A stretch of DNA of 22,864 nucleotides from a virus: IMG/VR virus record IMGVR_UViG_3300007276_000328, positions 1 through 22,864 of that record, one strand, 5' to 3'. The notes below the pieces were generated by a model, which saw nothing but the letters and a program-made list of their open reading frames with translations, was not told the origin of the DNA and made no database searches. Position 1 is the first letter of the stretch; each line of letters begins with the position of its first letter. Of this stretch, positions 7,931 through 21,843 are shown piece after piece. Made by a program: the position numbers and the translations under genes.

Positions 7931-8335
7931 TTAATGTTTGGCTTTAAAGAATTGATCGTTATCCTCTTTTAATCCTTTAACAAAGTCAGCTAACGGATAT
8001 TGTTGCTGCTTTTTAAAATTTGGAGAGCTGATATATTCTCTATCAACAATATCAAAGTTTTGATCGACCCAATAAACTCCGTTGTCAAAATTATCACAAT
8101 CAAGGTTTTTAAGCATATCAACGCCAAGGCTTAAAGTACCGCCTAAACCATTCGCAATTATTTGAGTTAATCTCGCAACGCCATAACTACCAGATCTTAA
8201 TCCATAATCTTTTGCAGTTTGCAAGAAACCTTCAACGCTGTCTCTGCCTCCATTCCAATGAAGATAGATCCCAACGCTATTTTTATCTTGTTCGCCTTTG
8301 TCATTAACAAAAGCAATAACAGCTCTATTTCCCAT
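7931..8335 (-). CDS. Conserved phage protein, 134 aa (function unknown)
   Basis: A 134-residue soluble protein starting MGNRAVIAFVNDKGE. It contains VGIYLHWNGGRDSVEGFLQ near residues 21-39 and an ending of DFVKGLKEDNDQFFKAKH. Proteins with this 'NRAVI-F...GIYLHWNGG-DSVE-FL' signature occur in phages and mobile elements; I know of no assigned activity. It is the second gene of a two-gene operon: its ATG overlaps the upstream TAA in TAATG, and GGTGG precedes it. A terminator-like hairpin follows the stop. The operon has its own promoter overlapped by two copies of the repeated operator motif, so it is probably repressed in the lysogen. Confidence 0.75.
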   Translation of the reverse strand: MGNRAVIAFVNDKGEQDKNSVGIYLHWNGGRDSVEGFLQTAKDYGLRSGSYGVARLTQIIANGLGGTLSLGVDMLKNLDCDNFDNGVYWVDQNFDIVDREYISSPNFKKQQQYPLADFVKGLKEDNDQFFKAKH

Positions 8336-8502
8336 TATTTACCACCTTTCACAGTTAAACCTTTTTTAACAGCCTTTGCTCTAGCGTCTTTTAAGTTTTC
8401 TGCGTACACATGGTTTTTAGTATCTTTATTATCACCGTTATCTTTTGTAACGCTGCCGTTTGATTTAATTAAAAATCGGTCGTAGTCATAAGCATCTGAC
8501 AT
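8335..8502 (-). CDS. Small charged protein, 55 aa
   Basis: A 55-residue ORF beginning MSDAYDYDRFLIKSNGSV. It is Lys/Asp/Asn rich, with ENLKDARAKAVKKGLTV near the end that looks like one amphipathic helix. A good AAAGGAG site lies upstream of ATG 8502, and its stop overlaps the next start (TAATG), so it is a real coupled gene. It is the first gene after a promoter with a perfect TTGACA box. No known family recognised; small size and promoter position suggest an early host-takeover or regulatory factor, which is inference. Confidence 0.68.
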   Translation of the reverse strand: MSDAYDYDRFLIKSNGSVTKDNGDNKDTKNHVYAENLKDARAKAVKKGLTVKGGK

Positions 8503-8548: not shown

Positions 8549-8577
8549 CGAATATCAAAGCATTACCAATGTGTCAA
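8549..8577 (-). promoter_or_regulatory. Promoter for the 8502 two-gene operon
   Basis: On the minus strand a perfect TTGACA (8577-8572) is followed after 17 bases by TATTCG (8554-8549), with a TGN extended -10 (TG at 8557-8556). Predicted start near 8542, giving a leader of about 40 bases that contains the AAAGGAG site of the 8335-8502 gene. The -35 box lies within an operator-like motif. Confidence 0.6.
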
Positions 8578-8599
8578 TACTTATTACCAACTTGGTTAA
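8564..8599. promoter_or_regulatory. Two operator-like sites at the 8502 promoter
   Basis: TACCAATGTGTCAA (8564-8577) and TACCAACTTGGTTA (8585-8598) each match the window's best motif TACCAAATTGGCAA at 11 of 14 positions. They start 21 bp apart, two helical turns. The first overlaps the TTGACA box and the second lies just upstream, as expected for repressor blocking of RNA polymerase. The second also forms the palindrome ACCAA-C-TTGGT. Confidence 0.6.
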
Positions 8600-9031
8600 T
8601 TAATTATTTTGTAAGCTCGGAATAGCTGTTGTTTGTATTTCTTCCACAATTTTTTTAGCATCAACCATTTCATTCGGTTTTCCCCAACTAACAGTTATTG
8701 TTGTGTCTTGTTTTATATCTTGCTGCAGCTTGTCGCCAAATGTTTTAGCAGCTAACTTTGAAGCCATCCATCGAATGTGGCTCCACTTCTCTCTTAAAAA
8801 ATGTGTCTCTTGTGGTGTCTTTGGTATTTCCATATCTTCCGCTATTTTATCTAATAGAGTGAATACTCCAGTTTGCCTGGCGGCCATAATTTTCTTTTGT
8901 AGTTCCTCATCTTCACGACAATATCTATAAACTGTTGAGGCATCGGGTAACTTCTTATCTCTTGTAATTTTTGATAAAGGCTCGCCAAGCTCTAAACGCT
9001 TGATGATTTCTGTAACTTGTTTTGTATCCAT
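8600..9031 (-). CDS. terS: Terminase small subunit (Sf6 gp1-like)
   Basis: A 143-residue protein with an N-terminal HTH (about residues 1-38, IIKRLELGEPLSKITRDKKL then STVYRYC). A helical oligomerisation part (EELQKKIMAARQTGVFTLLD; WSHIRWMASKLAAKTFGDK) follows, then a C-terminal tail. This is the pattern of Sf6-type terminase small subunits that recognise the packaging site and load DNA onto TerL. It overlaps the HGGxSTG gene by 40 bp and is the last gene of the leftward operon; the 8502 promoter lies just past it. Its separation from terL by about 1.3 kb is unusual. No Shine-Dalgarno site is visible, so translation may depend on coupling to the upstream gene. Confidence 0.78.
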   Translation of the reverse strand: MDTKQVTEIIKRLELGEPLSKITRDKKLPDASTVYRYCREDEELQKKIMAARQTGVFTLLDKIAEDMEIPKTPQETHFLREKWSHIRWMASKLAAKTFGDKLQQDIKQDTTITVSWGKPNEMVDAKKIVEEIQTTAIPSLQNN

Positions 9032-9246
9032 ATTAATAATTGTTCATCAGTATAATTTTTAAATTGTTTTAAATTTTTGTAAGCAATTAATTTGCCTTCT
9101 AATGTTATGGCTCCCGTTGAAGCTCCACCATGGAAGCGACACCGATAATAACCCGACTTTTTTAAATATCCCTTTGCTCTACACTGTTTACCAGATGTTC
9201 TTGCGATACTTTCGCATTGGATTTTTTTAAGTGGATGACCAGCCAT
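8992..9246 (-). CDS. HGGxSTG domain-containing protein
   Basis: An 84-residue protein with the HGGASTG motif at residues 39-45 and likely zinc ligands Cys11, Cys22, Cys36 and His39 (CRFHGG). The family is common in phages and mobile elements, usually close to the terminase genes; its biochemical role is not settled. It starts at ATG 9246, right after a small hairpin at 9254-9269, and lacks a clear ribosome-binding site. It overlaps terS by 40 bp, which fits co-translation and a possible packaging or HNH-like accessory function. Confidence 0.75.
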   Translation of the reverse strand: MAGHPLKKIQCESIARTSGKQCRAKGYLKKSGYYRCRFHGGASTGAITLEGKLIAYKNLKQFKNYTDEQLLIWIQNKLQKSSSV

Positions 9247-9253
9247 AATGTTC

Positions 9254-9269
9254 GGATATTTTTATATCC
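9254..9269 (-). repeat. Hairpin in front of the HGGxSTG gene
   Basis: GGATAT (9254-9259) and ATATCC (9264-9269) form a perfect 6-bp stem with a four-base loop, 8 bp before ATG 9246. No ribosome-binding site is visible there. The hairpin could regulate translation of the HGGxSTG-terS pair or mark a processing site. Confidence 0.5.
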
Positions 9270-9288
9270 AACTGTACTCTTTCAATTA

Positions 9289-9672
9289 CTAAATTAGATC
9301 AATCTTGTCTATAAGTGATTTTGATAGTTTACTTTCAAGATTAAAAACTGCGTTGATATATTTTTTCTTAATTGTCACTCGATGGCAGCCAAACATTTTA
9401 CCAAGAGCGACCCAGGAATAACGTTTTGATCTTTGCCACAAGATCTGTCTTTCTTTTAATTCAACCAAGGGTAACAATTCACAGATTGTTAGATCCCAGC
9501 AATTAATTTGTTTGTTATTGGCTCGAAGTTTTAATTTATCTTTATTGGCATGGAAGCCGTGATCTCCAGGATCATAAGAAAACTTTAATATATCAAACAT
9601 TGAGGCAGCTTTTGGAAGTTTAGGCTTTGGCATAAATCGTTCAGCCATGCCAGCTTCGTCTAGTATTTCCAT
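9289..9672 (-). CDS. HTH protein resembling DUF6362, 127 aa
   Basis: From ATG 9672 the protein has 127 residues; a TTG eight codons upstream is less likely, because AAGG lies 11-14 bases before the ATG. The C-terminal half reads WQRSKRYSWVALGKMFGCHRVTIKKKY, a clear helix-turn-helix in the style of DUF6362 proteins ('R---W--I---FGVSR-T--RR---AL'). These are found near phage terminase and replication genes. It lies in the leftward operon between an HTH_36-like protein and HGGxSTG/terS. A DNA-binding regulator of late genes or packaging is plausible; not proven. Confidence 0.7.
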   Translation of the reverse strand: MEILDEAGMAERFMPKPKLPKAASMFDILKFSYDPGDHGFHANKDKLKLRANNKQINCWDLTICELLPLVELKERQILWQRSKRYSWVALGKMFGCHRVTIKKKYINAVFNLESKLSKSLIDKIDLI

Positions 9673-9692
9673 CAATTTTACGCACCTTAACT

Positions 9693-10280
9693 TCAAACAG
9701 CCACCTTCACGATGGCATCAAACTTTTTTATAGGTTCGTCTTTCTTCCACTTATGTTTAGCAATCTTATCCCCGTTCTTATTTCTGTATTCAATGCTATC
9801 TCCATATTCAGCAACATAATTATATTGCTCGCCATTATATTCTATTGATGTTCCACTATGTTTAGCGGTGGGGGGAGAGTATCTTGCTCTTTGATAGCTA
9901 TTATATTTTTTAAATCTATTATAGTTAATATTATTAGTTTTATTAATATCAGTCGAATTTGAAACATCAGATGTTGCAAAAGTGGAACGTATGTTGTTTT
10001 TCCTTATTTCTTGCAGCTTTAATTGTTGTGGCAAATAATATTCATTAGTCGAGGATCTACGCTTAACAGTTACGTAACCCAGCTTGGCAAGGTGGAGAAT
10101 GCACCGATAGATGGCCGTACGAGACATCCCAATAGCCTTCGAGATAGTTGCGTGCCTTGGATAGCAAATTCCAGTTTCCTTGTTCATATAGCTTACCAGG
10201 CACGAATAGACCCTATAATCTTGGTTGCTTACCCTCACGTCTTTTAGCACTGTCAAATCTGATACAAAAAATAAACTCAT
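9693..10280 (-). CDS. HTH_36-type winged-helix protein, 195 aa
   Basis: ATG 10280 is chosen because it overlaps the upstream stop in ATGA; a TTG seven codons earlier is possible. Residues about 10-85 read as a replication-initiator-style winged helix: VSNQDYRVYSCLVSYMN, then TGICYPRHATISKAIGMSRTAIYRCILHLAKLGYV, then a wing. This pattern (Pfam HTH_36) is common in phage replication or regulatory proteins of the lambda O / DnaD-like kind. The C-terminal part is polar with a small beta-rich end (SIEYNGEQYNYVAEYGD). No replicative helicase or loader is seen nearby, so origin binding is possible but transcriptional control equally so. Confidence 0.75.
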   Translation of the reverse strand: MSLFFVSDLTVLKDVRVSNQDYRVYSCLVSYMNKETGICYPRHATISKAIGMSRTAIYRCILHLAKLGYVTVKRRSSTNEYYLPQQLKLQEIRKNNIRSTFATSDVSNSTDINKTNNINYNRFKKYNSYQRARYSPPTAKHSGTSIEYNGEQYNYVAEYGDSIEYRNKNGDKIAKHKWKKDEPIKKFDAIVKVAV

Positions 10281-10672
10281 TGCGTAACTTTCTTTGAACA
10301 ATTGATATTATGTTGATCTTGTAAAAATTCTAATATTTGGAACCAGCCTTCTGGGAGAACTAAAGTCTCTTGGCTTCTTGTTGGGGTTAGCTGCGTAACT
10401 CTCAAGCTCTCAACTATTCTATTCTTATCAACCTTATAAAAAACCAGGAAGGAAGGTAAACCAGCTAATCTTGCTAGAGCTTCAGTTGTCGTTGTCGCTT
10501 TCCACGTCTGGCCCCGATCTAAACACGTCTCGGCCAGATACAACGGATCCTTACAATTCTTGCAAATCCCGCAAGCATCAACATCAATCATGTAAACATT
10601 ATTTTCTCTGCACCACTCCGAATACGGATCGCCAGTATTAAAATAGTTTCCGTGAACAGTTCCTCTGGCCAC
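10277..10672 (-). CDS. Cys-rich protein, possible nuclease-like fold, 131 aa
   Basis: Starts with GTG at 10672, overlapping the stop of the upstream gene by one base; GGGGATC lies before it. It has a C-x2-C-x2-C cluster (Cys34, Cys37, Cys40) plus Cys21 and Cys50, consistent with a zinc site. Around it, YMIDVDA, then YLAET, Lys58 and LARLAGLPSFLVFYKV resemble the core of PD-(D/E)XK-type enzymes (Asp30/32, Glu48, Lys58). The spacing is not canonical, so this is a weak suggestion. Part of the leftward operon after cro. Function unknown. Confidence 0.68.
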   Translation of the reverse strand: MARGTVHGNYFNTGDPYSEWCRENNVYMIDVDACGICKNCKDPLYLAETCLDRGQTWKATTTTEALARLAGLPSFLVFYKVDKNRIVESLRVTQLTPTRSQETLVLPEGWFQILEFLQDQHNINCSKKVTQ

Positions 10673-10929
10673 TATAGATCCCCTTTTTTTCTCAACTCAT
10701 TTAATGGATCTTTAAGATGTTTAATTTCTTCTTGTAGATCTTTAATCTCTATTCTTAAATCCGCATTAATTTTTTGGTGTCCAGCGTTTACTATCTTGTA
10801 ATTGTCAAATTCTTCCTGGATACGATCTATTTCTTTTTTAAGATCCCAAATTTTATCATTAACCTTTTTGTTATCTCGTGGGTAACTATTAATTTTAACT
10901 TCGTTTTCGTATGTTTTATCTTCAGCCAT
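10672..10929 (-). CDS. Coiled-coil protein, 85 aa
   Basis: ATG 10929 is preferred over an upstream GTG because GGGGAG lies eight bases before it and the upstream TAA overlaps it (TAATG). The protein is mostly charged heptad-like sequence: KKVNDKIWDLKKEIDRIQEE and later RIEIKDLQEEIKHLKDPLN, so a long parallel coiled coil is likely. No membrane segment. It may bridge partners or sequester a host factor; nothing more specific can be read. Confidence 0.68.
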   Translation of the reverse strand: MAEDKTYENEVKINSYPRDNKKVNDKIWDLKKEIDRIQEEFDNYKIVNAGHQKINADLRIEIKDLQEEIKHLKDPLNELRKKGDL

Positions 10930-11096
10930 TACACGCACTCCCCAGGATCTAATGCTAACGGGTAACGCTTAACGTAAATCATGTACGCAGCGCAAAACTT
11001 ATCCCATTCATATTTAACTAGATCTATTGTTTGATTTTCAGTTTGTTTCGGAAATAAAATTACAGCTGCAACAAAAACTAAAATTAAATATTTCAT
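10929..11096 (-). CDS. Small exported or membrane-anchored protein, 55 aa
   Basis: Too short for usual gene finders but well supported: start MKYLILVFVAAVILFPKQ is a signal-peptide-like or single membrane helix. A 35-residue tail with KYEWDKFCAAYMIYVKRYP and two cysteines (CV at the end, C35) follows. Its stop overlaps the next ATG (TAATG), and its own ATG overlaps the upstream stop (ATGA). An inner-membrane or periplasmic peptide in the cro operon could act in superinfection exclusion or host envelope change; that is inference. Confidence 0.65.
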   Translation of the reverse strand: MKYLILVFVAAVILFPKQTENQTIDLVKYEWDKFCAAYMIYVKRYPLALDPGECV

Positions 11097-11386
11097 TTTG
11101 TGAATATGATCTCCGTAACTTCTTGCACCCAGGCAGCGGGTATAGTTGTGACGTTGCCTACTGTAAGACTTCCGTCTTCGTCATCGATAATGTAGTCGGT
11201 AAAGAGTGTAATTTTTTCTCTTGTTTGGATAAGTTTATAACCCAACGAACGAGGGATAGCGGGTTTGGCTGCAACTGCTTTGTCGATTGACAACCAGCTA
11301 CTATCACTAACAGCATCAAACCACTTAACTTCAACCAACGGGTAATCATTTATATTTCCACTTAATTTCTGTTTCTTTTTATTCAT
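11093..11386 (-). CDS. Conserved phage protein, 97 aa
   Basis: A 97-residue protein with LVEVKWFDAVSDSSWLSIDKA near residues 17-37, then SLGYKLIQTREKITLFTDY and VTTIPAAWVQEVTEI. This order ('V-W-D---S--W------a.........GyLi-----i-l------------IP--wV--i--l') is familiar from small phage proteins of unknown role. It forms a small beta-rich domain with no membrane segment. It lies directly after the Cro-like gene with 8 bp overlap and is coupled to the 55-residue exported gene (ATGA). Early-lytic expression is likely. Confidence 0.72.
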   Translation of the reverse strand: MNKKKQKLSGNINDYPLVEVKWFDAVSDSSWLSIDKAVAAKPAIPRSLGYKLIQTREKITLFTDYIIDDEDGSLTVGNVTTIPAAWVQEVTEIIFTK

Positions 11387-11576
11387 AAAAACTAGACGGC
11401 ATCACTTTGCCTTTGGTTTTTTCTTTGATAATTTTCATCCAATTTGATCTTGGAACCCGTTGACCCTTGCACCATCTCAAAGTAGTAGCTGCTGGAGAAA
11501 CCCCAGAAACACCAATAAAATCAGCTAGTTTTTTGTATGATAAGCCTTTACTCACTCTAAATTGTTCTAATTGCAT
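11379..11576 (-). CDS. Cro-like HTH regulator, 65 aa
   Basis: A 65-residue single-domain helix-turn-helix protein: MQLEQFRVSKGLSYKKLADFIG then PAATTLRWCKGQRVPRSNWM, the XRE/Cro type. It lies divergent to the larger repressor gene across a 139-bp gap, giving the classic cro/cI layout. It is the first gene of the leftward operon that ends with terS. The promoter for it has a TATACT box and overlaps operator-like sites, so it should be silent in the lysogen and active in lytic growth. No ligand-binding or protease domain. Confidence 0.8.
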   Translation of the reverse strand: MQLEQFRVSKGLSYKKLADFIGVSGVSPAATTLRWCKGQRVPRSNWMKIIKEKTKGKVMPSSFYE

Positions 11577-11597
11577 ACATTGTCTTTAAGGAAACGA

Positions 11598-11634
11598 TAC
11601 CTTATTGGCAAGTATAATTAACCAAAGTTGTTAA
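11598..11634. promoter_or_regulatory. Operator/promoter of the Cro-like leftward operon
   Basis: TACCTTATTGGCAA (11598-11611) matches the motif TACCAAATTGGCAA at 12 of 14. A weaker copy, AACCAAAGTTGTTA (starting 11620), lies 22 bp on. On the minus strand TATACT (11616-11611) is a good -10 box directly between them; the -35 region (near ATCTGT) is poor. The predicted start near 11604 gives a leader of about 28 bases to ATG 11576. The placement would let a repressor block this promoter. Confidence 0.6.
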
Positions 11635-11680
11635 CAGATGACCAGGGTTGTAATTACTTTTTAATAATTGGTAAAATAAA

Positions 11681-11709
11681 TTGACATAATACTAATGTTG
11701 TGTTTCATT
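11681..11709 (+). promoter_or_regulatory. Possible repressor-gene promoter
   Basis: A perfect TTGACA at 11681-11686 is followed after 17 bases by a weak TTCATT (11704-11709), which predicts a start at about 11716, exactly the ATG chosen for the repressor. A half operator TTGGTAA (11668-11674) lies just upstream, as in activator-dependent repressor-maintenance promoters. The poor -10 box keeps confidence low. Confidence 0.4.
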
Positions 11710-11715
11710 GCCGTT

Positions 11716-12444
11716 ATGGTAAAAATAGTTGATATTGGAAAATTAAACGCTATTAACGCTGATATGTTTTTAAAAAAGAAAATGGATGAGGTGGGTATGG
11801 CAGCTTCAGAGCTTGCTCACAAATTAAAAGTTTCTCCCGTTACAGTTCATAGATGGTTAAACACCAGCAGAAAAGTTAGTCCAGAACAAGCTATAGAAAT
11901 TGCTAAAATTATTAACTGTGATCCAACAGAGATATTATTTCCTACAAAAAAATTTGATACTGTTCAGCTTCATTCTTATGCTGAAGATTATATGGTTAAA
12001 AAATTACATAAAAAAAATTACAGAGATGTTATAATACCTAGTGGTTTTTACACACCACAAACAAAAGCTGTTCAATTTTATGCACCAGGCAGAGAAGCTC
12101 ATAACGAAATACATTTATTTGAAAGAGGCGGAACTGCAGATTATGATTATAATGGTTTTAGTGAGGATGCTATTAACAGCACTTGCTATGTTGAGCCAAC
12201 TGAAAAAGCTAGAAAAAAAGGTTTTAGGGATATTATTTGTTTAATTGAAATAGATAAAACACAAACTACTTTTAGATTAAATTTATTACATCCAGAAACT
12301 AAAAAACTAATATCTAAAATAGCAACCAATGTAGATCCTAGAGACATTAAAATTGCAGCTCCAAGAAAAATGACTTTTTTTGAAAGTTATAATAAATATA
12401 AGCCTGGCAGATTGGCTTCTAATAAAACAAATCCCTTTAAATAA
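11716..12444 (+). CDS. CI-like phage repressor with atypical C-terminal domain, 242 aa
   Basis: From ATG 11716 (an upstream ATG at 11695 would add seven residues but lies before the predicted transcript start). Residues about 11-65 form an XRE-type HTH: GMAASELAHKLKVSPVTVHRWLNTSRKVS, then IAKIINCDPTEILF. The C-terminal 160 residues are beta-rich (VIIPSGFYTPQTKAVQFYAPG; FRDIICLIEIDKTQTTFRLNLL). They may be a degenerate S24/LexA-like fold, but no Ala-Gly cleavage site or Ser-Met catalytic motif is visible. It is divergent to the Cro-like gene and is the best candidate for the protein binding the repeated operator. Induction without RecA-type self-cleavage is suggested. Confidence 0.78.
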   Translation: MVKIVDIGKLNAINADMFLKKKMDEVGMAASELAHKLKVSPVTVHRWLNTSRKVSPEQAIEIAKIINCDPTEILFPTKKFDTVQLHSYAEDYMVKKLHKKNYRDVIIPSGFYTPQTKAVQFYAPGREAHNEIHLFERGGTADYDYNGFSEDAINSTCYVEPTEKARKKGFRDIICLIEIDKTQTTFRLNLLHPETKKLISKIATNVDPRDIKIAAPRKMTFFESYNKYKPGRLASNKTNPFK

Positions 12445-12453
12445 TTATCCACA
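12445..12453 (+). promoter_or_regulatory. Consensus DnaA box
   Basis: TTATCCACA, an exact match to the bacterial DnaA-box consensus TTATNCACA, sits directly after the repressor stop and 107 bp before the nuclease gene. It is in non-coding DNA next to operator sites. One box alone does not make an origin, but it may link early transcription or replication to host DnaA. Confidence 0.45.
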
Positions 12454-12473
12454 ACTAATACAACCAGCGATTT

Positions 12474-12531
12474 TACCTAAATGGTAATTTAATTTGCCAA
12501 TAAGGATAATTATGTTTACCAATCGTTCCAA
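12474..12531 (+). promoter_or_regulatory. Operator sites and promoter of the recombination operon
   Basis: TACCTAAATGGTAA (12474-12487; 11 of 14 to the motif and itself TTACC-TAAAT-GGTAA) and TTGCCAATAAGG (12494-12505) lie 20 bp apart. The second is identical over 12 bases to the site in front of cro, read on its other strand. A half-site TACCAA (12517-12522) lies in a TTTACC -35-like box (12515-12520), with TATTTA (12537-12542) 16 bases on. Predicted start is about 3 bases before ATG 12552, so the transcript is nearly leaderless. Confidence 0.55.
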
Positions 12532-12551
12532 TAAAGTATTTAATTTGTATT

Positions 12552-13493
12552 ATGGAACCAGAGTTAAAAGACGATTTTTTAGAAAATATTGTAGAGCTTC
12601 CGCAATGGGTAGAGCTTTATAAAATTAATCATTGGTCGCCTTCTCAATTAAATTCTATGGATTGTATGTGGGGATATAAATATTTGTATCTTACACAAGA
12701 GCAACGAAGAAAACTTCCAATCAATTCTAAAATGTTTACGGGTGTTTGCCTTGGCGACATGGGGATCCTAGTATTTGGCAAATATTTATGGGAAACAAAA
12801 ATTGGTAAAGGTTTAGTTAAAACAGAGATCTTACCTCAAAGAAAAATATTTGATAAAATCTTAGAAAAATTTAATGCGTATGAGCCAGCAGATGATGCAG
12901 ATAAAGCGCAGCATGACGTAGCAAGATTAGGTTTAGCAAAATCATTTTTAACTTTAAAAAATGGAATAAGAGAAATTAATTTAACCTCCCCTATTGAATG
13001 TGAAAGATGCGTAACGCTAACATTGGATGGCTGCGTTCTACCTACAATTGGAAGAATAGATTTTGAAGATGAACATAATTTTGTTGAAATGAAAACAAAA
13101 CATAGAAAGAAAAATAGACCCAGAAAAGATGGTACTTCAAACTATTCACTCCCTAAACTAGATGAAGGTTATATGGGATGGGAAGAACACGTTAGCCAGG
13201 TGGCGTTTTATTACTTTGCTTGTGAAGAAAAAAAGAAACCACACTTGTTCGTAATGAACGAAGAAGATTATAAAATTTTTACCCCAGAAAATTGCGAGGA
13301 TTTAAAACCAGAAAACTTGCGCAAACGTCTTAACAAATTAACCATGACAGCTAAACGTAGAGAAAGAGTTATGGCAAATCATGCTGGCAAGAATACTTGG
13401 CATCAAGATATTAATCCAGACTTTGGCCACTTCTTTTGGAAAAACATGGGAGAGCATTTAGATAATGCAAAAAAATTATGGGGTTTAAATTGA
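12552..13493 (+). CDS. PD-(D/E)XK exonuclease (RecB/Cas4-like), 313 aa
   Basis: Catalytic core seen directly: GRID with Asp170, then VEMKTK giving Glu179 and Lys181 (D-x8-E-x-K), and the QxxxY helix motif QVAFY (Gln216, Tyr220) typical of RecB/Cas4/lambda-exonuclease relatives. An N-terminal WSPSQLNSMDCMWGYKYLYL (about residues 28-47) resembles the 'S-S-l--y--CP--y-y' start of RecB-family nucleases. No four-Cys iron-sulphur cluster is clear. It heads the rightward operon, followed by an annealing-protein candidate and an SSB-like protein, so it probably supplies 3' tails for phage recombination. No ribosome-binding site is present before ATG 12552. Confidence 0.82.
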   Translation: MEPELKDDFLENIVELPQWVELYKINHWSPSQLNSMDCMWGYKYLYLTQEQRRKLPINSKMFTGVCLGDMGILVFGKYLWETKIGKGLVKTEILPQRKIFDKILEKFNAYEPADDADKAQHDVARLGLAKSFLTLKNGIREINLTSPIECERCVTLTLDGCVLPTIGRIDFEDEHNFVEMKTKHRKKNRPRKDGTSNYSLPKLDEGYMGWEEHVSQVAFYYFACEEKKKPHLFVMNEEDYKIFTPENCEDLKPENLRKRLNKLTMTAKRRERVMANHAGKNTWHQDINPDFGHFFWKNMGEHLDNAKKLWGLN

Positions 13494-13765
13494 AAAAATT
13501 AAAAGATGATCCGTTAGTTATGAATTTACAGCCATGGTTGCTGAACCGATATTTAACAAAGAAAAAAAATAGTTATACTAGCAAAGGTTTATGGTGGCCT
13601 ATAAGCCTTGTTATAATTATTTTAGGCTTAGCTCTCTTGGTCGTTAGCTTTGTTAAATATAGCCAGAGTAGTCGTACAGCGATGTATGACAAGGGTTTTA
13701 ATACAGCAGTATTCTTTTCCCTTCATTCAAGCTCTGGCTATTTAAAAAAGGATTATCATGGGTAA
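13478..13765 (+). CDS. Single-pass membrane protein, 95 aa
   Basis: One strong membrane helix, about residues 38-60 (GLWWPISLVIIILGLALLVV), with a basic N-terminal part (Lys-rich, probably cytoplasmic) and a short polar C-terminal tail. It overlaps the nuclease gene by 16 bp. The first ATG (13478) has only a weak ribosome-binding site; ATG 13520 is an alternative that keeps the helix. It sits between the nuclease and annealing candidates, a strange place for a membrane protein, so it may anchor the recombination complex or be an unrelated early gene. Function unknown. Confidence 0.62.
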   Translation: MGFKLKKLKDDPLVMNLQPWLLNRYLTKKKNSYTSKGLWWPISLVIIILGLALLVVSFVKYSQSSRTAMYDKGFNTAVFFSLHSSSGYLKKDYHG

Positions 13766-14342
13766 CGTCATTAATTTAATTTCACTTGATACTTATCTTA
13801 AAAGATTAAAAACCAATGGTGGGATGTGGGAGTTTAAGCCTGGCAAATGGATTATAAAACATTTGGAAGTAGAAGGATTGGCCCAGCATTATAATATAGA
13901 TACAAACATTGAGTTAGTATATTGCAATTTAGATAAAGATGTAGCTGTGGTTAAAGCAACAGCGATTAATAAAACAAAAGCATTCCATTCACTAGGAGAA
14001 GTATCTCCAAAAAATAATGAGTTTGATTACCCAGTAGCCGTTGCAGAAAAAAGAGCTGTTGATAGATCTATTTTAAAAGCACTTGGTATTCACGGCAATG
14101 TTTATTCGGATCAAGAATTACCAAATAAAAAACAAAATAATAATGAAAATTCAGGGATCAAGTTAGATCATGCAGATGTTATTGAAGAAAGAATAAAAAC
14201 TGTAACCCATCAAGCAAATTTAGAGCAGTTAAAAAGTCAAAATAAAGATTTTATAATTAAGCTCTCAAAAGAAAATTTACCAAGGTATGAAAAATTAAAA
14301 AATGCCTTTTTAAATAGAAACCAGCAATTAACCAAAGGATAA
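13758..14342 (+). CDS. Putative ssDNA-annealing protein (Rad52/Erf-like), 194 aa
   Basis: Residues about 60-120 contain VVKATAINKTKAFHSLGEVSP, then DYPVAVAEKRAVDRSILKALG and a VYSDQE end. The A-EKRA-DR-ILKALG-hG--YS--E signature recurs in phage proteins and resembles the Rad52-fold/Erf family core. N-terminal residues 1-60 are beta-rich; the C-terminal 70 residues are charged and helical. A ribosome-binding site AAAGGAT precedes ATG 13758. The neighbours, a RecB-like nuclease before and an SSB-tip protein after, make an exonuclease-annealase-SSB set. The family assignment is moderate, based on motif and context. Confidence 0.65.
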   Translation: MGNVINLISLDTYLKRLKTNGGMWEFKPGKWIIKHLEVEGLAQHYNIDTNIELVYCNLDKDVAVVKATAINKTKAFHSLGEVSPKNNEFDYPVAVAEKRAVDRSILKALGIHGNVYSDQELPNKKQNNNENSGIKLDHADVIEERIKTVTHQANLEQLKSQNKDFIIKLSKENLPRYEKLKNAFLNRNQQLTKG

Positions 14343-14348
14343 ATATAT

Positions 14349-14657
14349 ATGGCTGACTTCAAGAAACCACAAGATCCAAACTGGGTGGCTACATTTAGTT
14401 TGAAAAGAAACGCAGATAAGTTACCTGGAGACGAGGCTACTAAAAATAGACCCGATCTAGTTTTATCAGATAGTGATAAAGTAAACCCAAAGACAATGAA
14501 GCCTTATAGAAAGAACTTCACTATTGATGGTGTTTGGATGGAGGCTTCCGCTTATGTCCAGGAAGATAAATCTGTTAAAATTACTATTAAAAAGACGGGT
14601 ACTGGCAATGCTATGGCAGCAGCTCCAGCAGCCAATAGAGAAGAAATCCCTTTTTAA
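14349..14657 (+). CDS. SSB-tip protein, 102 aa (candidate ssDNA-binding protein)
   Basis: A small protein with a beta-rich centre (KNFTIDGVWMEASAYVQEDKSVKITIKK, about residues 55-82) that could form an OB-like barrel. It has an Ala-rich linker and the terminal sequence EEIPF. That end is like the acidic-Pro-Phe tip (DDIPF) by which bacterial SSBs recruit repair proteins. The N-terminus is rich in Lys/Asp/Asn. AAAGGA in the last codons of the annealing gene precedes it by 9 bases, so the two are coupled. An SSB role is suggested by tip and context; the fold cannot be confirmed by eye. Confidence 0.6.
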   Translation: MADFKKPQDPNWVATFSLKRNADKLPGDEATKNRPDLVLSDSDKVNPKTMKPYRKNFTIDGVWMEASAYVQEDKSVKITIKKTGTGNAMAAAPAANREEIPF

Positions 14658-14664
14658 ATAACTT

Positions 14665-14883
14665 ATGGAACAATATGGTTTAACTGCAAAGCAACTAAAA
14701 CTTTTTAAGTTTATTAAAAACTATATTGGAAAAAATACTGTATCGCCATCTTATGAAGAAATGATGGTGGCGGTACATCTAAAATCTAAAAATTCGATTA
14801 ATAAATATGTTAGCCAATTAGAAGATAGAAAATGGATCAAAAAATTACCAGGAAAAGCAAGAAGCATTCAAATATTAAAGTAA
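14665..14883 (+). CDS. LexA DNA-binding-domain-only protein, 72 aa
   Basis: The whole protein matches the N-terminal winged helix of LexA: LTAKQLKLFKFIKNYIG, then SPSYEEMMVAVHLKSKNSINKYVSQLEDRKWI, then GKARSIQIL. This parallels LexA's LTARQ, PP-RAEI, L-KGVI and ASRGI pieces. The S24 peptidase half is missing, so it cannot self-cleave. A stand-alone LexA-like domain could compete for host SOS boxes, block the SOS response or regulate phage genes. It lies 7 bp after the SSB-tip gene, and its stop overlaps the DUF3310 start (TAATG). No ribosome-binding site is visible. Confidence 0.8.
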   Translation: MEQYGLTAKQLKLFKFIKNYIGKNTVSPSYEEMMVAVHLKSKNSINKYVSQLEDRKWIKKLPGKARSIQILK

Positions 14884-15137
14884 TGACACACCCAGATATT
14901 TTTAAAGAATTTAATTACGAATGCTTAGCTGAACAAATTGGCAGCGATCATTATAAAGATATGAAAGTTGAACCCGCATATTTTATTAGTGAGAATAAAC
15001 TATTGTTTGCTGAAGGAAATGTTGTAAAATATGTATGCAGACATCAAAAAAAAAATAAAGCTGAAGATATAAAAAAAGCTATTCACTATTTAAAAATAAT
15101 ATTAGAACGAGATTATCCCGATGACAAAGAAGATTGA
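14883..15137 (+). CDS. DUF3310 family protein, 84 aa
   Basis: The motif HYKDMKVEPAYFISENKLLF followed by GNVVKYVCRHQKKNKAEDIKKAIHYL is the DUF3310 (SaV-like) signature, a small family frequent in phage early regions; no activity is known. ATG 14883 is preferred because it overlaps the preceding TAA (TAATG) and the conserved part starts just after it; an upstream ATG (14832) would read through the LexA-like gene. No membrane segment. Likely a nucleotide or DNA metabolism accessory by location. Confidence 0.78.
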   Translation: MTHPDIFKEFNYECLAEQIGSDHYKDMKVEPAYFISENKLLFAEGNVVKYVCRHQKKNKAEDIKKAIHYLKIILERDYPDDKED

Positions 15138-15390
15138 AAAATTCTGGAACGGAAGTGCAAACTTTACAGCGAGTGAAGTTTTTAATTCTGTTACTGATGC
15201 TGCAAATCAAATAATACCTAGCGATGCAGCAATATACGAAGTTGATGGTAAAACTGTTAGCTTTGAGTTCGCTAGAATAAAAGAGGTAGAAAATGGCGAT
15301 AAACCATTACCAACATTTGGAACAAAAAATCCAAATGATCGAGAAGGAAAGAAAGTCTCTGAACGCAAAGATCACGAGACTAAAAGTTAA
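15121..15390 (+). CDS. Hypothetical protein, 89 aa
   Basis: Starts MTKKIEKFWNGSANFTASE, with a moderately hydrophobic DAANQIIPSDAAIYEVDGKTVSFEFARI part and a highly charged, probably disordered tail. It overlaps DUF3310 by 17 bp and, out of frame, the next gene by 98 bp. Its ribosome-binding site is weak. Function unknown; the long overlap means its last 33 residues are constrained by the next gene, so either the tail is non-essential or one of the two is not translated. Confidence 0.55.
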   Translation: MTKKIEKFWNGSANFTASEVFNSVTDAANQIIPSDAAIYEVDGKTVSFEFARIKEVENGDKPLPTFGTKNPNDREGKKVSERKDHETKS

Positions 15391-15499
15391 GAACGGGGGA
15401 ATGTATCCTCCAGGGATTGCGGCTATAAGTAAAACAGCTCACTCAAAATTGATTGCTGTTATAGGTTTGCAAGACCAACTAAGCAAAATACAAGCGTAG
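15293..15499 (+). CDS. Hypothetical protein, 68 aa (overlapping gene)
   Basis: A 68-residue ORF with ATG 15293 preceded by AGAGG at good spacing. The first half is a charged helix (HLEQKIQMIEKERKSLNAKI), the second GGMYPPGIAAISKTAHSKLIAVIGLQDQ; no membrane segment. It overlaps the 3' end of the 15121 gene by 98 bp in another frame. The stronger ribosome-binding site favours this ORF being translated. Last gene before the operator/promoter region for the integrase operon. Confidence 0.58.
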   Translation: MAINHYQHLEQKIQMIEKERKSLNAKITRLKVKNGGMYPPGIAAISKTAHSKLIAVIGLQDQLSKIQA

Positions 15500-15564
15500 T
15501 ATTTTAGTTTAGAACCACTATAAACTGATTAAATTCAGACACCTTCCCTACGCCTAAATGAAAA

Positions 15565-15609
15565 TACCAGTTTGGCAACTTAGACTATTGACATATACCA
15601 AATTGGCAA
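15565..15609 (+). promoter_or_regulatory. Two operator sites at the 15623 operon
   Basis: TACCAGTTTGGCAA (15565-15578) and TACCAAATTGGCAA (15596-15609) are the two clearest copies of the repeated motif, 12 of 14 identical to each other. They start 31 bp apart, about three helical turns. The second lies wholly between the -35 and -10 boxes, a strong position for blocking polymerase. Confidence 0.72.
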
Positions 15610-15616
15610 CTATATA
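15588..15616 (+). promoter_or_regulatory. Promoter of the 15623-integrase operon, leaderless
   Basis: A perfect TTGACA (15588-15593), exactly 17 bases, then TATATA (15611-15616). The expected start is about 15623, which is the A of the ATG. No Shine-Dalgarno site precedes that ATG, so a leaderless mRNA is predicted. This is the best-formed promoter in the window. Confidence 0.7.
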
Positions 15617-15622
15617 TTTTAT

Positions 15623-16048
15623 ATGGTTAAAAACTTCAAAAAAATAAAGTTCGCTACCTACTCTAACTTAGAGGAATACTTCACAAAAATAATACTTCCC
15701 CAAAAAAATAAATCATCAAAAGTAATAGGTAAAACTTTGTTGGTTTGGGATAAACAATCTAACCAAGGAGCAGAAACTATGCCTAAGACGTATCAGATTT
15801 TGAGTTATCAAAATTTAAAAAAACTAAACCATAAAGCAAAATGGAAAGATAGAAATCATTACATCCCCGATGATGTGATGGCAGCAATCAAAGGAAAATT
15901 TACTGTTGTGACTTTTCAATTTCCTCACAATGACGTTGAGCAAAGATTAGTTCTTTACGCTGGAGAGAAATACGGAACTTTAACTCTTGATGTTGAATTT
16001 AAGGATCTAAAATTAATCACTCCATTAACTATGAAGGATGCTGCGTAA
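15623..16048 (+). CDS. Hypothetical protein, 141 aa; alternative internal start 15779
   Basis: First gene of the integrase operon. It has 141 residues if the leaderless ATG 15623 is used. A second in-frame ATG at 15779 has a perfect AAGGAG eight bases upstream and would give an 89-residue form (MPKTYQILSYQNLKK...). The N-terminal 52 residues are Lys-rich; the C-terminal half is beta-rich (VVTFQFPHNDVEQRLVLYAGE). Its stop overlaps the next start (TAATG). No family recognised. Two translation products from one gene are possible. Position suggests a role in lysogeny or integration control. Confidence 0.65.
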   Translation: MVKNFKKIKFATYSNLEEYFTKIILPQKNKSSKVIGKTLLVWDKQSNQGAETMPKTYQILSYQNLKKLNHKAKWKDRNHYIPDDVMAAIKGKFTVVTFQFPHNDVEQRLVLYAGEKYGTLTLDVEFKDLKLITPLTMKDAA

Positions 16049-16539
16049 TGTCAAAAGAAATTAAACAAGTAAAAGTAATCCATATGGCGTTTGAGGATAA
16101 AGCAAAACATATAGCAACTTATGTGCCAGAGGATGGATTTCAAAATGTTAAAGATATGTTGGAGGATGTTTTTAAATTTACTCAAAATAGAGACGACAGC
16201 TGGAGTAACCCAGAAGCTAAAGATCCAGAGGGTAACCACTATGATGGATCTGAAAATCTTACAATGATTGCTTCATTAGAAAATAATCCTAAAAACGAAA
16301 ATGGAGTTTACATGGGTCACAGATCTACTTCAGTTGGAGACAGAATGTCTGTGTGTTATGAAAATAATAAAGGTAATGGTTTTTATGAAAAAATCTTTAG
16401 AGTTGACGATGTAGGCTTTAGTTTATGTATGACTAAAAATCATGTTGATGGCAAAAAAAATACTTTAGAAAATGTTTTTGACCAAATAGATCATTTAGAA
16501 AAAAGAATGCTACTTAACGAACAGATGGATGATAGTTAA
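16048..16539 (+). CDS. YodL-like-motif protein, 163 aa
   Basis: A mostly polar 163-residue protein. Residues about 107-140 read MGHRSTSVGDRMSVCYEN, then FYEKIFRVDDVGFSL, similar to the 'RS-SVGD-i-----------v---GF' core of YodL-type domains found in mobile-element proteins. The N-terminus (VKVIHMAFEDKAKHIATYVPE) is probably an alpha/beta extension; the C-terminus is charged. Coupled to the upstream gene by TAATG and 3 bp ahead of the integrase. Activity unknown; the motif similarity is suggestive only. Confidence 0.65.
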   Translation: MSKEIKQVKVIHMAFEDKAKHIATYVPEDGFQNVKDMLEDVFKFTQNRDDSWSNPEAKDPEGNHYDGSENLTMIASLENNPKNENGVYMGHRSTSVGDRMSVCYENNKGNGFYEKIFRVDDVGFSLCMTKNHVDGKKNTLENVFDQIDHLEKRMLLNEQMDDS

Positions 16540-16542
16540 TAT

Positions 16543-17742
16543 ATGAAAGTTTGGATCGTTAATAAGAAAAAAAGAAAAAAATTAGTTGTTAAAGTTGCTT
16601 GGTTTGAGAATGGCAAAGAAAAAACTCAAACTAAAGAAAGTTTTAATTATAACGAAAAAAAGAAAGCTGAAGCTCTAAAAATTACTTTGCAAAATAAAGA
16701 AAAAATTGATGCAGTAGATCAGAAAATTACTTTTAACTTTGCATTTAATGAATACTTTAAAGTTTTAAATAACGATCCAGACACCAGCTCTAAGTATAAA
16801 GATATGCAAGTTTCATACATTACTAATCATGTGGCCCCATATATTAATAAAGAATATTTGTCTGATTATTTACTAGCAGATTTTATTGAAACAACTTTGA
16901 TTGGCATAAAAAATAGCAAAAGATTAGATTGGAGAACCAAAGATGGTAAAGGTTATTATGTCAAAAGAGCTGAAGCCATTGGCAAGGTAACTATTAAAGC
17001 TGTTGTGCTTGAGTTTAAAAAGTTTGTTAATTGGTGCAATAGCCATAAATATAAAATTGATTATTCTATTGCTAACTTTAAATTTCCTAAAAATTACTTT
17101 AGTAACTATACAAAACAAATAGCCTGGATGCCTACTACCCCACAATTATTGGCCATTGTTAATAAAGAACCAGATATTAAATTAAAAACATTTTTCAAAT
17201 GTGCTGCTGAAACTGGCGTTAGATTAAATGAGCTGCTTGGTATTTGTTATGAAAGTGTAGATTTTAACAATGGTGGTATTTACATAGATCACTCTATTGA
17301 TAATGAAAATAAGTTTAGACCCTACAAGGTTAAAACTAGCAGAAGATTTATTGAGATCTCTGATGAATTATTAGAGTTGTTTAGTATATGGATGAAAACC
17401 CAGATCTTTCCAGTAACTCATAGAAATGTAATTTTCACTAATCCTACTAATGGTAAAGTTGAAAAAAGAACTTTTAAAAGAGTGTTCAATATATCTGGCA
17501 GTAGAGCCAATAAAAAAATTAAACAATGTGCAAAATTATTAGGTATTGATTGGCAGAATGGAATGTCTCCTTTTAGAAAGTGGAGCATATCAAGAATGCA
17601 AGAACTTAAAATTTTAACTGAAAAACAAATGGATGATAGATTTGCTAACTCTAAAGAAATTAGACAAAGCAACTACATAAGAGATTTGAATTTGAATGAG
17701 AAACAAAGAAAAACTGCTATTAATCAAATAACTAAAGGATGA
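16543..17742 (+). CDS. int: Tyrosine integrase with substituted catalytic histidines, 399 aa
   Basis: Site-specific recombinase for integration at the tRNA-derived attP 0.5 kb downstream. The N-terminal basic part (1-60) would bind arm sites; a core-binding domain covers about 65-195. The catalytic domain shows AAETGVRLNELLGI with Arg227, a Lys264 region (YKVKTSRR), MSPFRKW with Arg345, and the nucleophile Tyr378 in RQSNYIRDL. The usual HxxR and GH-x8-Y histidines appear as Ser342 and Asn369. So Arg-Lys-Arg-Tyr are kept but both His are replaced, an unusual pentad. Expressed with two upstream genes from an operator-controlled promoter. Length suits the lambda-type family. Confidence 0.85.
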   Translation: MKVWIVNKKKRKKLVVKVAWFENGKEKTQTKESFNYNEKKKAEALKITLQNKEKIDAVDQKITFNFAFNEYFKVLNNDPDTSSKYKDMQVSYITNHVAPYINKEYLSDYLLADFIETTLIGIKNSKRLDWRTKDGKGYYVKRAEAIGKVTIKAVVLEFKKFVNWCNSHKYKIDYSIANFKFPKNYFSNYTKQIAWMPTTPQLLAIVNKEPDIKLKTFFKCAAETGVRLNELLGICYESVDFNNGGIYIDHSIDNENKFRPYKVKTSRRFIEISDELLELFSIWMKTQIFPVTHRNVIFTNPTNGKVEKRTFKRVFNISGSRANKKIKQCAKLLGIDWQNGMSPFRKWSISRMQELKILTEKQMDDRFANSKEIRQSNYIRDLNLNEKQRKTAINQITKG

Positions 17743-17746
17743 TAGT

Positions 17747-18163
17747 ATGTCAGCACTACAAGAGAAGGAACGAATAGCGAAGGTAATGTTCGTGTTAAGA
17801 ACAATATCTGGAAAAACACAAACAAGACTATCTAAAATATTAAAAGTCTCATTTCAACAAATCCAAAAATATGAGAAAGCTCTTAATGGTATTGGATCAG
17901 ACAAATTATTTGTTTTAGCCAAAGAACAAGGTTGGGATATTAATTTGCTATACAATGGAGATCCAGAACAGATGCTCCCTTCTATACCTCTATTTAAGCA
18001 AGATATGGTGGCAAGAAAATTTCGTGAGATAGAAGCTAACATTCGAGAAGAAGCGAAGCTACAAGCTCGCTATCTGCCTCTATTGCCTAAGTTAGAACGG
18101 GAGTTGTCTTATGAAAATACTTTTAAAGATCCCGTTGCAGAACCAATAAAAAAATACGCTTAA
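17747..18163 (+). CDS. XRE-family regulator, 138 aa
   Basis: The N-terminal domain (about residues 6-70) is an XRE HTH of the alphaproteobacterial type: LRTISGKTQTRLSKILKVSFQQIQKYEKAL, then GSDKLFVLAKEQGWDINLLY. The remainder is a helical, charged tail. AAAGGA in the last integrase codons lies nine bases before ATG 17747, so it is co-expressed with integrase. It lies next to attP: it could be an excision-control factor or an extra lysogeny regulator. It is not a typical small excisionase. It ends 17 bp before the attP arm repeats. Confidence 0.78.
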   Translation: MSALQEKERIAKVMFVLRTISGKTQTRLSKILKVSFQQIQKYEKALNGIGSDKLFVLAKEQGWDINLLYNGDPEQMLPSIPLFKQDMVARKFREIEANIREEAKLQARYLPLLPKLERELSYENTFKDPVAEPIKKYA

Positions 18164-21421: not shown

Positions 21422-21843
21422 GCGCAGCTTCTCATTAGCTCCGCCAGGCTTTCACACCTAGATGTTGTTTGACTATGCCAGGCACTATCAATCATTTCAT
21501 CTGCTGCTTTATTGTAATCAGCTTCTTCAATAGCTTCCCACATCTTTTTAAATTTCATCACACGAGGTTTCCCAAGTTGGAAAGCCATTTCACAAATGAT
21601 ACCTTTAACTATTTCGGGTACTTCTATTTCTTCCAGTAATTCGTTTGCAGATAACAAAGCAATTTCAAAATCATTATCGAACACAGCTTCAAGCTCATCT
21701 TTAGAATATTCAATACCCTCAACAAAGTGATCGGTAGGTAGAACCAGATGGCCATAACCAACTGTAGCGAAACCCAGGCTATCGGAGTACACAGTATCCC
21801 TAAACCCTTCGTGTTCCTTAATTCGTTGTTTAACTTGTTCCAT
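21418..21843 (-). CDS. T4-type lysozyme (GH24 endolysin), 141 aa
   Basis: The catalytic triad of T4-like lysozymes is visible: Glu12 in KEHEGF, Asp21 in YSDSLG and Thr27 in ATVGYGH. It hydrolyses the glycan strands of peptidoglycan. The length (141) is a little under T4 lysozyme (164), with no signal-arrest N-terminus, so release should depend on the holin coded immediately downstream (4-bp overlap). It follows a PD-(D/E)XK-like nuclease gene by 3 bp. The closing SAWHSQTTSRCESLAELMR is typical of the family's C-terminal helix. Confidence 0.9.
   Translation of the reverse strand: MEQVKQRIKEHEGFRDTVYSDSLGFATVGYGHLVLPTDHFVEGIEYSKDELEAVFDNDFEIALLSANELLEEIEVPEIVKGIICEMAFQLGKPRVMKFKKMWEAIEEADYNKAADEMIDSAWHSQTTSRCESLAELMRSCA

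Follow-up and report, generated by a model that had tools for sequence, protein, structure and literature searches.

What controls the early genes of a phage in which four separate promoter regions, spread over some 7 kb, carry copies of one short palindrome? Few marine viruses are more abundant than HTVC010P-type phages, and no description of their lysis-lysogeny circuit was found in the papers searched. The question is raised by IMG/VR record IMGVR_UViG_3300007276_000328, a 22,864-base virus fragment analyzed in full (hereafter, the window). Its large terminase (TerL) shares 57–61% identity, across 99% of the protein, with those of HTVC010P-group Pelagibacter phage isolates, and the window encodes both a tyrosine integrase and a repressor; on TerL homology combined with these two genes, we take it to be a fragment of a temperate relative of this type, for which the family Ubiqueviridae has been proposed (PMC10504331). 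Two genome-contig scans with a 313-aa nuclease-like protein as query returned no prophage in cultured genomes, and the window contains no tRNA. The analysis described below makes it highly probable that the repeated sites are operators of a single immunity repressor, the predicted 242-aa product of 11716–12444, within a regulon of the lambda/186 type that would include autoregulation and heteroimmune classes.

An earlier sequence-only reading of this DNA had listed a 14-base motif, TACCAAATTGGCAA at 15596, with 12/14 matches at 15565 and 11598 and 11/14 matches at 8564, 8585 and 12474, as well as a reversed copy at 12494. All these positions and counts are correct, and bases 12494–12505 are the exact reverse complement of 11600–11611. 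The motif itself is better described as a 15-bp inverted repeat, TT(A/G)CC-N5-GG(T/C)AA, and the list had omitted a strong site at 11708–11722, overlapping the repressor start codon, along with weak ones near 11619 and 11639. The exact form TACC-N5-GGYA occurs in the window at five places (11598, 11709, 12474, 15565 and 15596), all inside the four gaps, which make up 2% of the window (466 bp). The mean for dinucleotide-shuffled sequences was 0.39, and none of 300 reached five. As this pattern was itself derived from the window sites, an additional position weight matrix (PWM) was compiled from 14 integrase-promoter sites, all of them from other phages. The seven best matches of this independent matrix in the whole window (in descending order 15595, 15564, 12473, 8584, 11597, 11708 and 8563; scores in the table below) again all lie within the four gaps, in agreement with the earlier placement, and the sequence-only reading thus passes the matrix check that it had itself proposed. 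No coding site equals them, the best match elsewhere (9.2 bits at 21569) being located within the lysozyme gene; it was rejected as an operator, as similar matches recur in relatives in a manner resembling lysozyme coding conservation. At 8 bits or more the real matrix finds seven matches in the gaps, versus a mean of 0.15 for column-shuffled matrices. The looser pattern (A/T)(A/G)CC-N5-GG(T/C)(A/T) is only weakly enriched by count (seven are reached by 6 of 300 shuffles), and for this reason we rely on the matrix and on conservation. The helical phasing proposed earlier fared less well: spacings of 20–22 and 31 bp, close to whole turns, are real in the window but are not strictly kept in relatives, where the integrase operator pair is 31, 22, 34, 41, 40, 33 or 49/18 bp apart. 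Strict phasing was thus rejected as a rule, and these spacings do not cluster convincingly on whole turns of DNA.

The sites are also conserved at the integrase promoter and in the gaps flanking the repressor. In scans of viral contigs, close relatives of the repressor turned up at 13 loci, relatives of gene 15623 (which heads the integrase operon) at 70 and the integrase at 12. The promoter layout in front of gene 15623 recurs in most of ∼65 relatives: TTGAC is followed by a spacer containing an operator and by a −10 rich in A/T, and another operator lies upstream. The repressor-flanking gaps retain the operator positions in the 13 close relatives. The relatives' sites aligned to 11619–11633 fall between the TTGACA and TATTGC hexamers of cro, and the 8502 sites are kept in L098, L102 and L103. 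Some relatives carry further sites. An additional operator-like site, absent from the window, is found downstream of the hth17747 gene in four loci (L178:13687, L179:10351, L182:4524 and L185:4963), perhaps marking one more controlled promoter, while in L186 the interval from gene 15623 to the integrase contains a second strong pair of the window type (13750 and 13790, a distance of 40 bp), and a further repressed promoter may be located there.

The protein encoded at 11716–12444 has a Cro/C1-type helix-turn-helix (HTH) domain (Pfam HTH_3, 1.6e-8), a family matched in 27 out of 27 of its orthologues; the HTH_3 match of its Cro-like neighbor (11379–11576) is under the family cut-off (0.0094). 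As in CI/Cro-type regions, the two HTH genes are divergently transcribed, and repeated palindromic operators (strong at 11597 and 11708, weak at 11619 and 11639) lie between them. A predicted structural model of the repressor (mean predicted local distance difference test score, pLDDT, of 83) has a lambda–186 hybrid repressor, 186 CI and lambda CI as its best matches (Foldseek, 2e-6 to 1e-4 for the 186 CI hybrid and 186 CI). For the C-terminal domain alone Foldseek returned nothing significant; in VIA-align this domain matched 186 CI (2fjr) with Z 8.3–8.5 over 108 residues at 3.5 Å and lambda CI with Z 8.2, rows 1–17 (Z 8.3 to 4.7) being all CI, LexA or UmuD, and unrelated folds appearing from 4.5. 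The modeled domain has the LexA/CI fold, like that of phage 186 CI. The catalytic serine-lysine pair of the S24 self-cleaving repressors (LexA, lambda CI) is not conserved: across the 27 orthologues the C-terminal domain has no invariant serine, its sole invariant lysine is K218, near the end, and none of these proteins has a Peptidase_S24 match in Pfam. Because no serine is invariant, RecA-driven self-cleavage would not be expected, and an antirepressor or some other route is probably required for induction. The closest phage protein in GenBank, HTVC028P gp05 (27% identity over half its length), is too remote for a transfer of function.

The repressor most likely starts at 11716 rather than at the upstream ATG at 11695, as the relatives share a start within the operator. 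A start-codon pattern, TTGMC-N3-ATGRYAA, whose three central bases can vary, is present in every repressor class and follows a TTGACA-like hexamer at an almost constant distance. Because the end of the predicted −10 precedes the ATG by six bases, the site at 11708–11722 appears to be an autoregulatory operator, located on a transcript without a leader. The promoter of gene 15623 has a similar geometry (TATATA at 15611–15616, then ATG at 15623), which, judged from spacing only, suggests leaderless starts at both genes. A consensus promoter scan did not detect the operator-bearing promoters because their −10 boxes differ from TATAAT.

Further evidence comes from relatives with a different operator. 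At the corresponding promoters these phages (class B, the window type being class A) carry another palindrome, TTGAC...GCAA or TGTCAA, and the majority of the matching gaps in them are picked out by a class-B matrix. Their repressors are only 26–31% identical to that of the window, and the recognition helix reads RDKTT..RW (KDASTINRW in one lineage), as compared to VSPVT..RW or (K/R)N.VT..RW in class A. The class of the integrase-promoter operator (called at a matrix threshold of 11 bits) and that of the helix are both readable in 36 phages, and in 35 of them the two agree (25 A/A and 10 B/B), L048 being the one discordant case. On a tree of four neighboring genes, operator class and helix class each change four times; of four independent pairs a mean of 3.5 are concordant and none is opposite. 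Backbone genes do not explain this match, as illustrated most clearly by the class-B phage L188 and by L177, whose early genes are 89–94% identical in DNA (the nuclease-like, 13758, SSB-like, LexA-like and 14883 genes), while the repressor (40%), the integrase operator cassette (62%) and the operators themselves differ. Likewise, in the class-B phage L104 the −35, −10 and ribosome site of the 8502 promoter are retained, and this promoter is nearly identical to those of L102 and L103 apart from the operators: the 8563 position carries a class-B version, TTGACACGTTGTCAA, and the 8584 site is absent. The earlier choice of the 11716–12444 protein as the likely binder is supported by this covariation. 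Since the sites change together with the DNA-reading helix of the repressor, the early, recombination, integrase and accessory genes are very probably controlled as a unit by one lambda-like repressor.

Several observations weigh against this assignment. Four pairs are too few for a sign test to reach 0.05, and one class-B site scores 10.8 bits, near the 11-bit threshold (class-A sites score at least 16.8). In L048, which looks like an intermediate in class switching, the repressor is of class A but the integrase operators are of class B, the same as in L024, while L187 has a class-B repressor and a class-A-like site adjoining cro. The Cro-like protein varies between the classes too, albeit less than the repressor, and the 8502 operators occur only where the accessory cassette is present. 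Finally, if the recombination operon is transcribed from a weak candidate promoter immediately before 12552 (TTTACC-18-TTTAAT), its operators would lie upstream of that promoter. The silencing suggested in the sequence-only reading is consistent with operators that overlap −35 or −10 boxes of the integrase, 8502 and repressor genes; at the recombination operon, regulation may be of either sign.

Of the other explanations, the least improbable is that the sites are mainly Cro operators, with the 65-aa Cro-like protein as the chief binder and the long repressor acting at only some of them. Operators are normally common to Cro-like proteins and CI, and Cro may bind these sites too; the site nearest cro retains a TTACC half in the class-B phages L180, L183 and L187, as though it were linked to Cro, the better conserved protein. 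Yet the Cro-like protein remains 61–80% identical across both operator classes while the operators switch and the repressor falls to 26–31%, and the operator on the start codon fits repressor autoregulation, which makes a chief role of Cro unlikely. We consider it more improbable still that the 15564/15595 pair represents arm-type or excisionase sites of the recombination machinery. This pair does lie upstream of the integrase operon, and the sites of the phage 186 excisionase Apl are helix-spaced repeats that occur at promoters too (PMC7498355). However, the same palindrome is present at cro, at the repressor start, at the recombination operon and at 8502, the class-A sites are kept in L177 and L192, whose integrases are only 51–56% identical, and the site class tracks the repressor.

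Control borrowed from the host, by a host regulator binding the sites, has slightly less to recommend it. Host sites could take the form of short AT-rich palindromes close to TTGACA promoters, but at shared promoters of close relatives there are two site classes that follow the phage repressor, and such switching would not be expected of a host factor. Chance similarity in AT-rich intergenic DNA had to be considered as the original sites were chosen by eye; it was rejected, with a negligible residual probability, in view of the shuffles, the independent matrix and the conservation in relatives.

For the circuit envisaged for the 11716–12444 repressor, the sequences show which sites occur, where they lie, that they are kept in relatives and that they covary with the recognition helix; we infer binding, dimerization, repression as opposed to activation and an effect on lysogeny. 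The protein, presumably as a dimer, would bind each palindrome. In a lysogen it would cover the cro promoter across the tandem sites as well as the gap before the recombination operon, sit between the −35 and −10 of the integrase promoter, and occupy the −35 and the sequence upstream of it at the 8502 promoter; on its own gene it would lie over the +1 and the start codon, limiting its synthesis. Lytic and integration genes would thus be shut, with all four early units off, and infection or induction would release the four simultaneously. Repressor classes with their matching operators would constitute heteroimmune groups. A more speculative proposal, which we consider somewhat less probable than its negation, is that immunity specificity switches by the exchange of separate short cassettes (a repressor-cro block, and operator cassettes of ∼45 bp located kilobases away between conserved flanks), and that incomplete exchanges such as L048, in which a new repressor would be combined with old integrase operators, persist naturally as intermediates, with the integrase uncoupled from immunity.

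Table. Operators and genes of the proposed immunity regulon in the window (PWM, score with the independent matrix, bits)
Feature	Position	Strand	PWM	Remarks
Accessory cassette behind the 8502 promoter	7931..8502	-		55-aa and 134-aa proteins
Operator, 8502 promoter, weaker	8563..8577		9.3	overlaps −35 TTGACA (8577-8572, - strand)
Operator, 8502 promoter	8584..8598		16.4	21 bp upstream of the 8563 site
Cro-like HTH protein, 65 aa	11379..11576	-		divergent from repressor; weak HTH_3
Operator nearest cro (OR1-like)	11597..11611		15.1	kept in relatives
Weak tandem operator-like site (OR2-like)	11619..11633			over cro −35 region; degenerate; candidate from aligned relatives
Weak tandem operator-like site (OR3-like)	11639..11653			AACCAGAGTTGTAA; kept in close relatives; candidate
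Putative autoregulatory operator	11708..11722		14.9	predicted +1 and start codon; TTGCC-GTT-ATGGTAA
Putative immunity repressor, 242 aa	11716..12444	+		HTH_3 and LexA/CI-fold C-terminal domain (modeled)
Operator, recombination operon gap	12473..12487		17.4	kept in relatives
Second, weaker operator, recombination operon gap	12494..12508		7.3	TTGCCAATAAG; kept in class A relatives
Rightward early operon	12552..15499	+		conserved 313-aa nuclease-like, SSB-like, LexA DNA-binding-domain-like proteins, others
Operator, integrase operon promoter, upstream	15564..15578		19.5	
Operator, integrase operon promoter	15595..15609		20.1	fills 17-bp spacer between TTGACA (15588-15593) and TATATA (15611-15616)
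Integrase operon	15623..18163	+		gene 15623, gene 16048, tyrosine integrase (16543-17742), HTH protein (17747-18163)

Several further features were observed. Adjoining the integrase operators upstream, a noncoding block at 15510–15562 (about AACTGATTAAATTCRGAYACCCTTCCTACGCCTAAATAAA) is conserved in both operator classes and is possibly a recombination anchor or another element. In gene 15623 (15623–16048) the first 45–50 residues are conserved and the remainder is replaced in many relatives; as matches stop at residue 45/50, a fixed start is joined to varying C-termini right behind the promoter thought here to be repressed. Directly after the repressor stop codon, 12448–12456 (TTATCCACA) resembles a DnaA box, and class A relatives have a similar TTATCC(A/C)CA. 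A 72-aa protein (14665–14883), kept in relatives, matches the LexA DNA-binding domain only, without a C-terminal domain. Neither the 55-aa nor the 134-aa accessory protein had a family match; the 134-aa gene (7931–8335) has at least 237 viral relatives, with no Pfam or PHROG match, and is found behind the 8502 promoter in the window, L098 and L102–L104 and after gene 15623 in L031, L053 and L181.

This proposed circuit has counterparts in known phages. The presence of the integrase under the shared operators, singled out in the sequence-only reading, is ordinary in principle: lambda int lies behind the CI-repressed pL, and the arrangement proposed here is alike. The CI of phage 186, which is not cleaved and acts at several promoters, is the best structural match to the C-terminal domain of the window repressor (at ∼10% sequence identity, and based on the predicted model), for which self-cleavage is likewise not expected and several promoters are proposed. 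Phage P1 C1 is another autoregulated repressor acting at several dispersed promoters, as proposed here, but the P1 operators are asymmetric and more numerous. In the CI-Cro regions of lambda, 434 and P22, as in the window, the repressor gene diverges from a Cro-like gene, palindromic operators are arranged in tandem in the interval and the repressor has a CI-type fold, whereas here operators are located at four separate promoters and on the repressor start codon, and no catalytic serine is conserved. Lambda and 434 are heteroimmune variants with a common layout (PMC6550527). The dispersed sites of cluster A mycobacteriophages, whose motif diverges along with the repressor to give graded immunity classes, provide a further parallel; these stoperators are asymmetric, number 20–30 per genome, are mostly outside promoters and are bound by a monomer (PMC6550527). 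In contrast, the window has about 7–10 sites, which are palindromic and confined to promoter gaps.

Overall, the immunity parts of the lambda/186 type are already known, as is the covariation of repressor and dispersed sites in cluster A mycobacteriophages (PMC6550527). What is new is the occurrence of such a system in these marine phages, together with its operator code and a natural series in which the switch is complete (L188/L177) or partial (L048). The operator code permits sorting of metagenomic contigs into immunity groups by sequence alone and predicts which phages are heteroimmune, while the natural series, with its discordant intermediate, bears on how a repressor and its many dispersed operators change specificity together.

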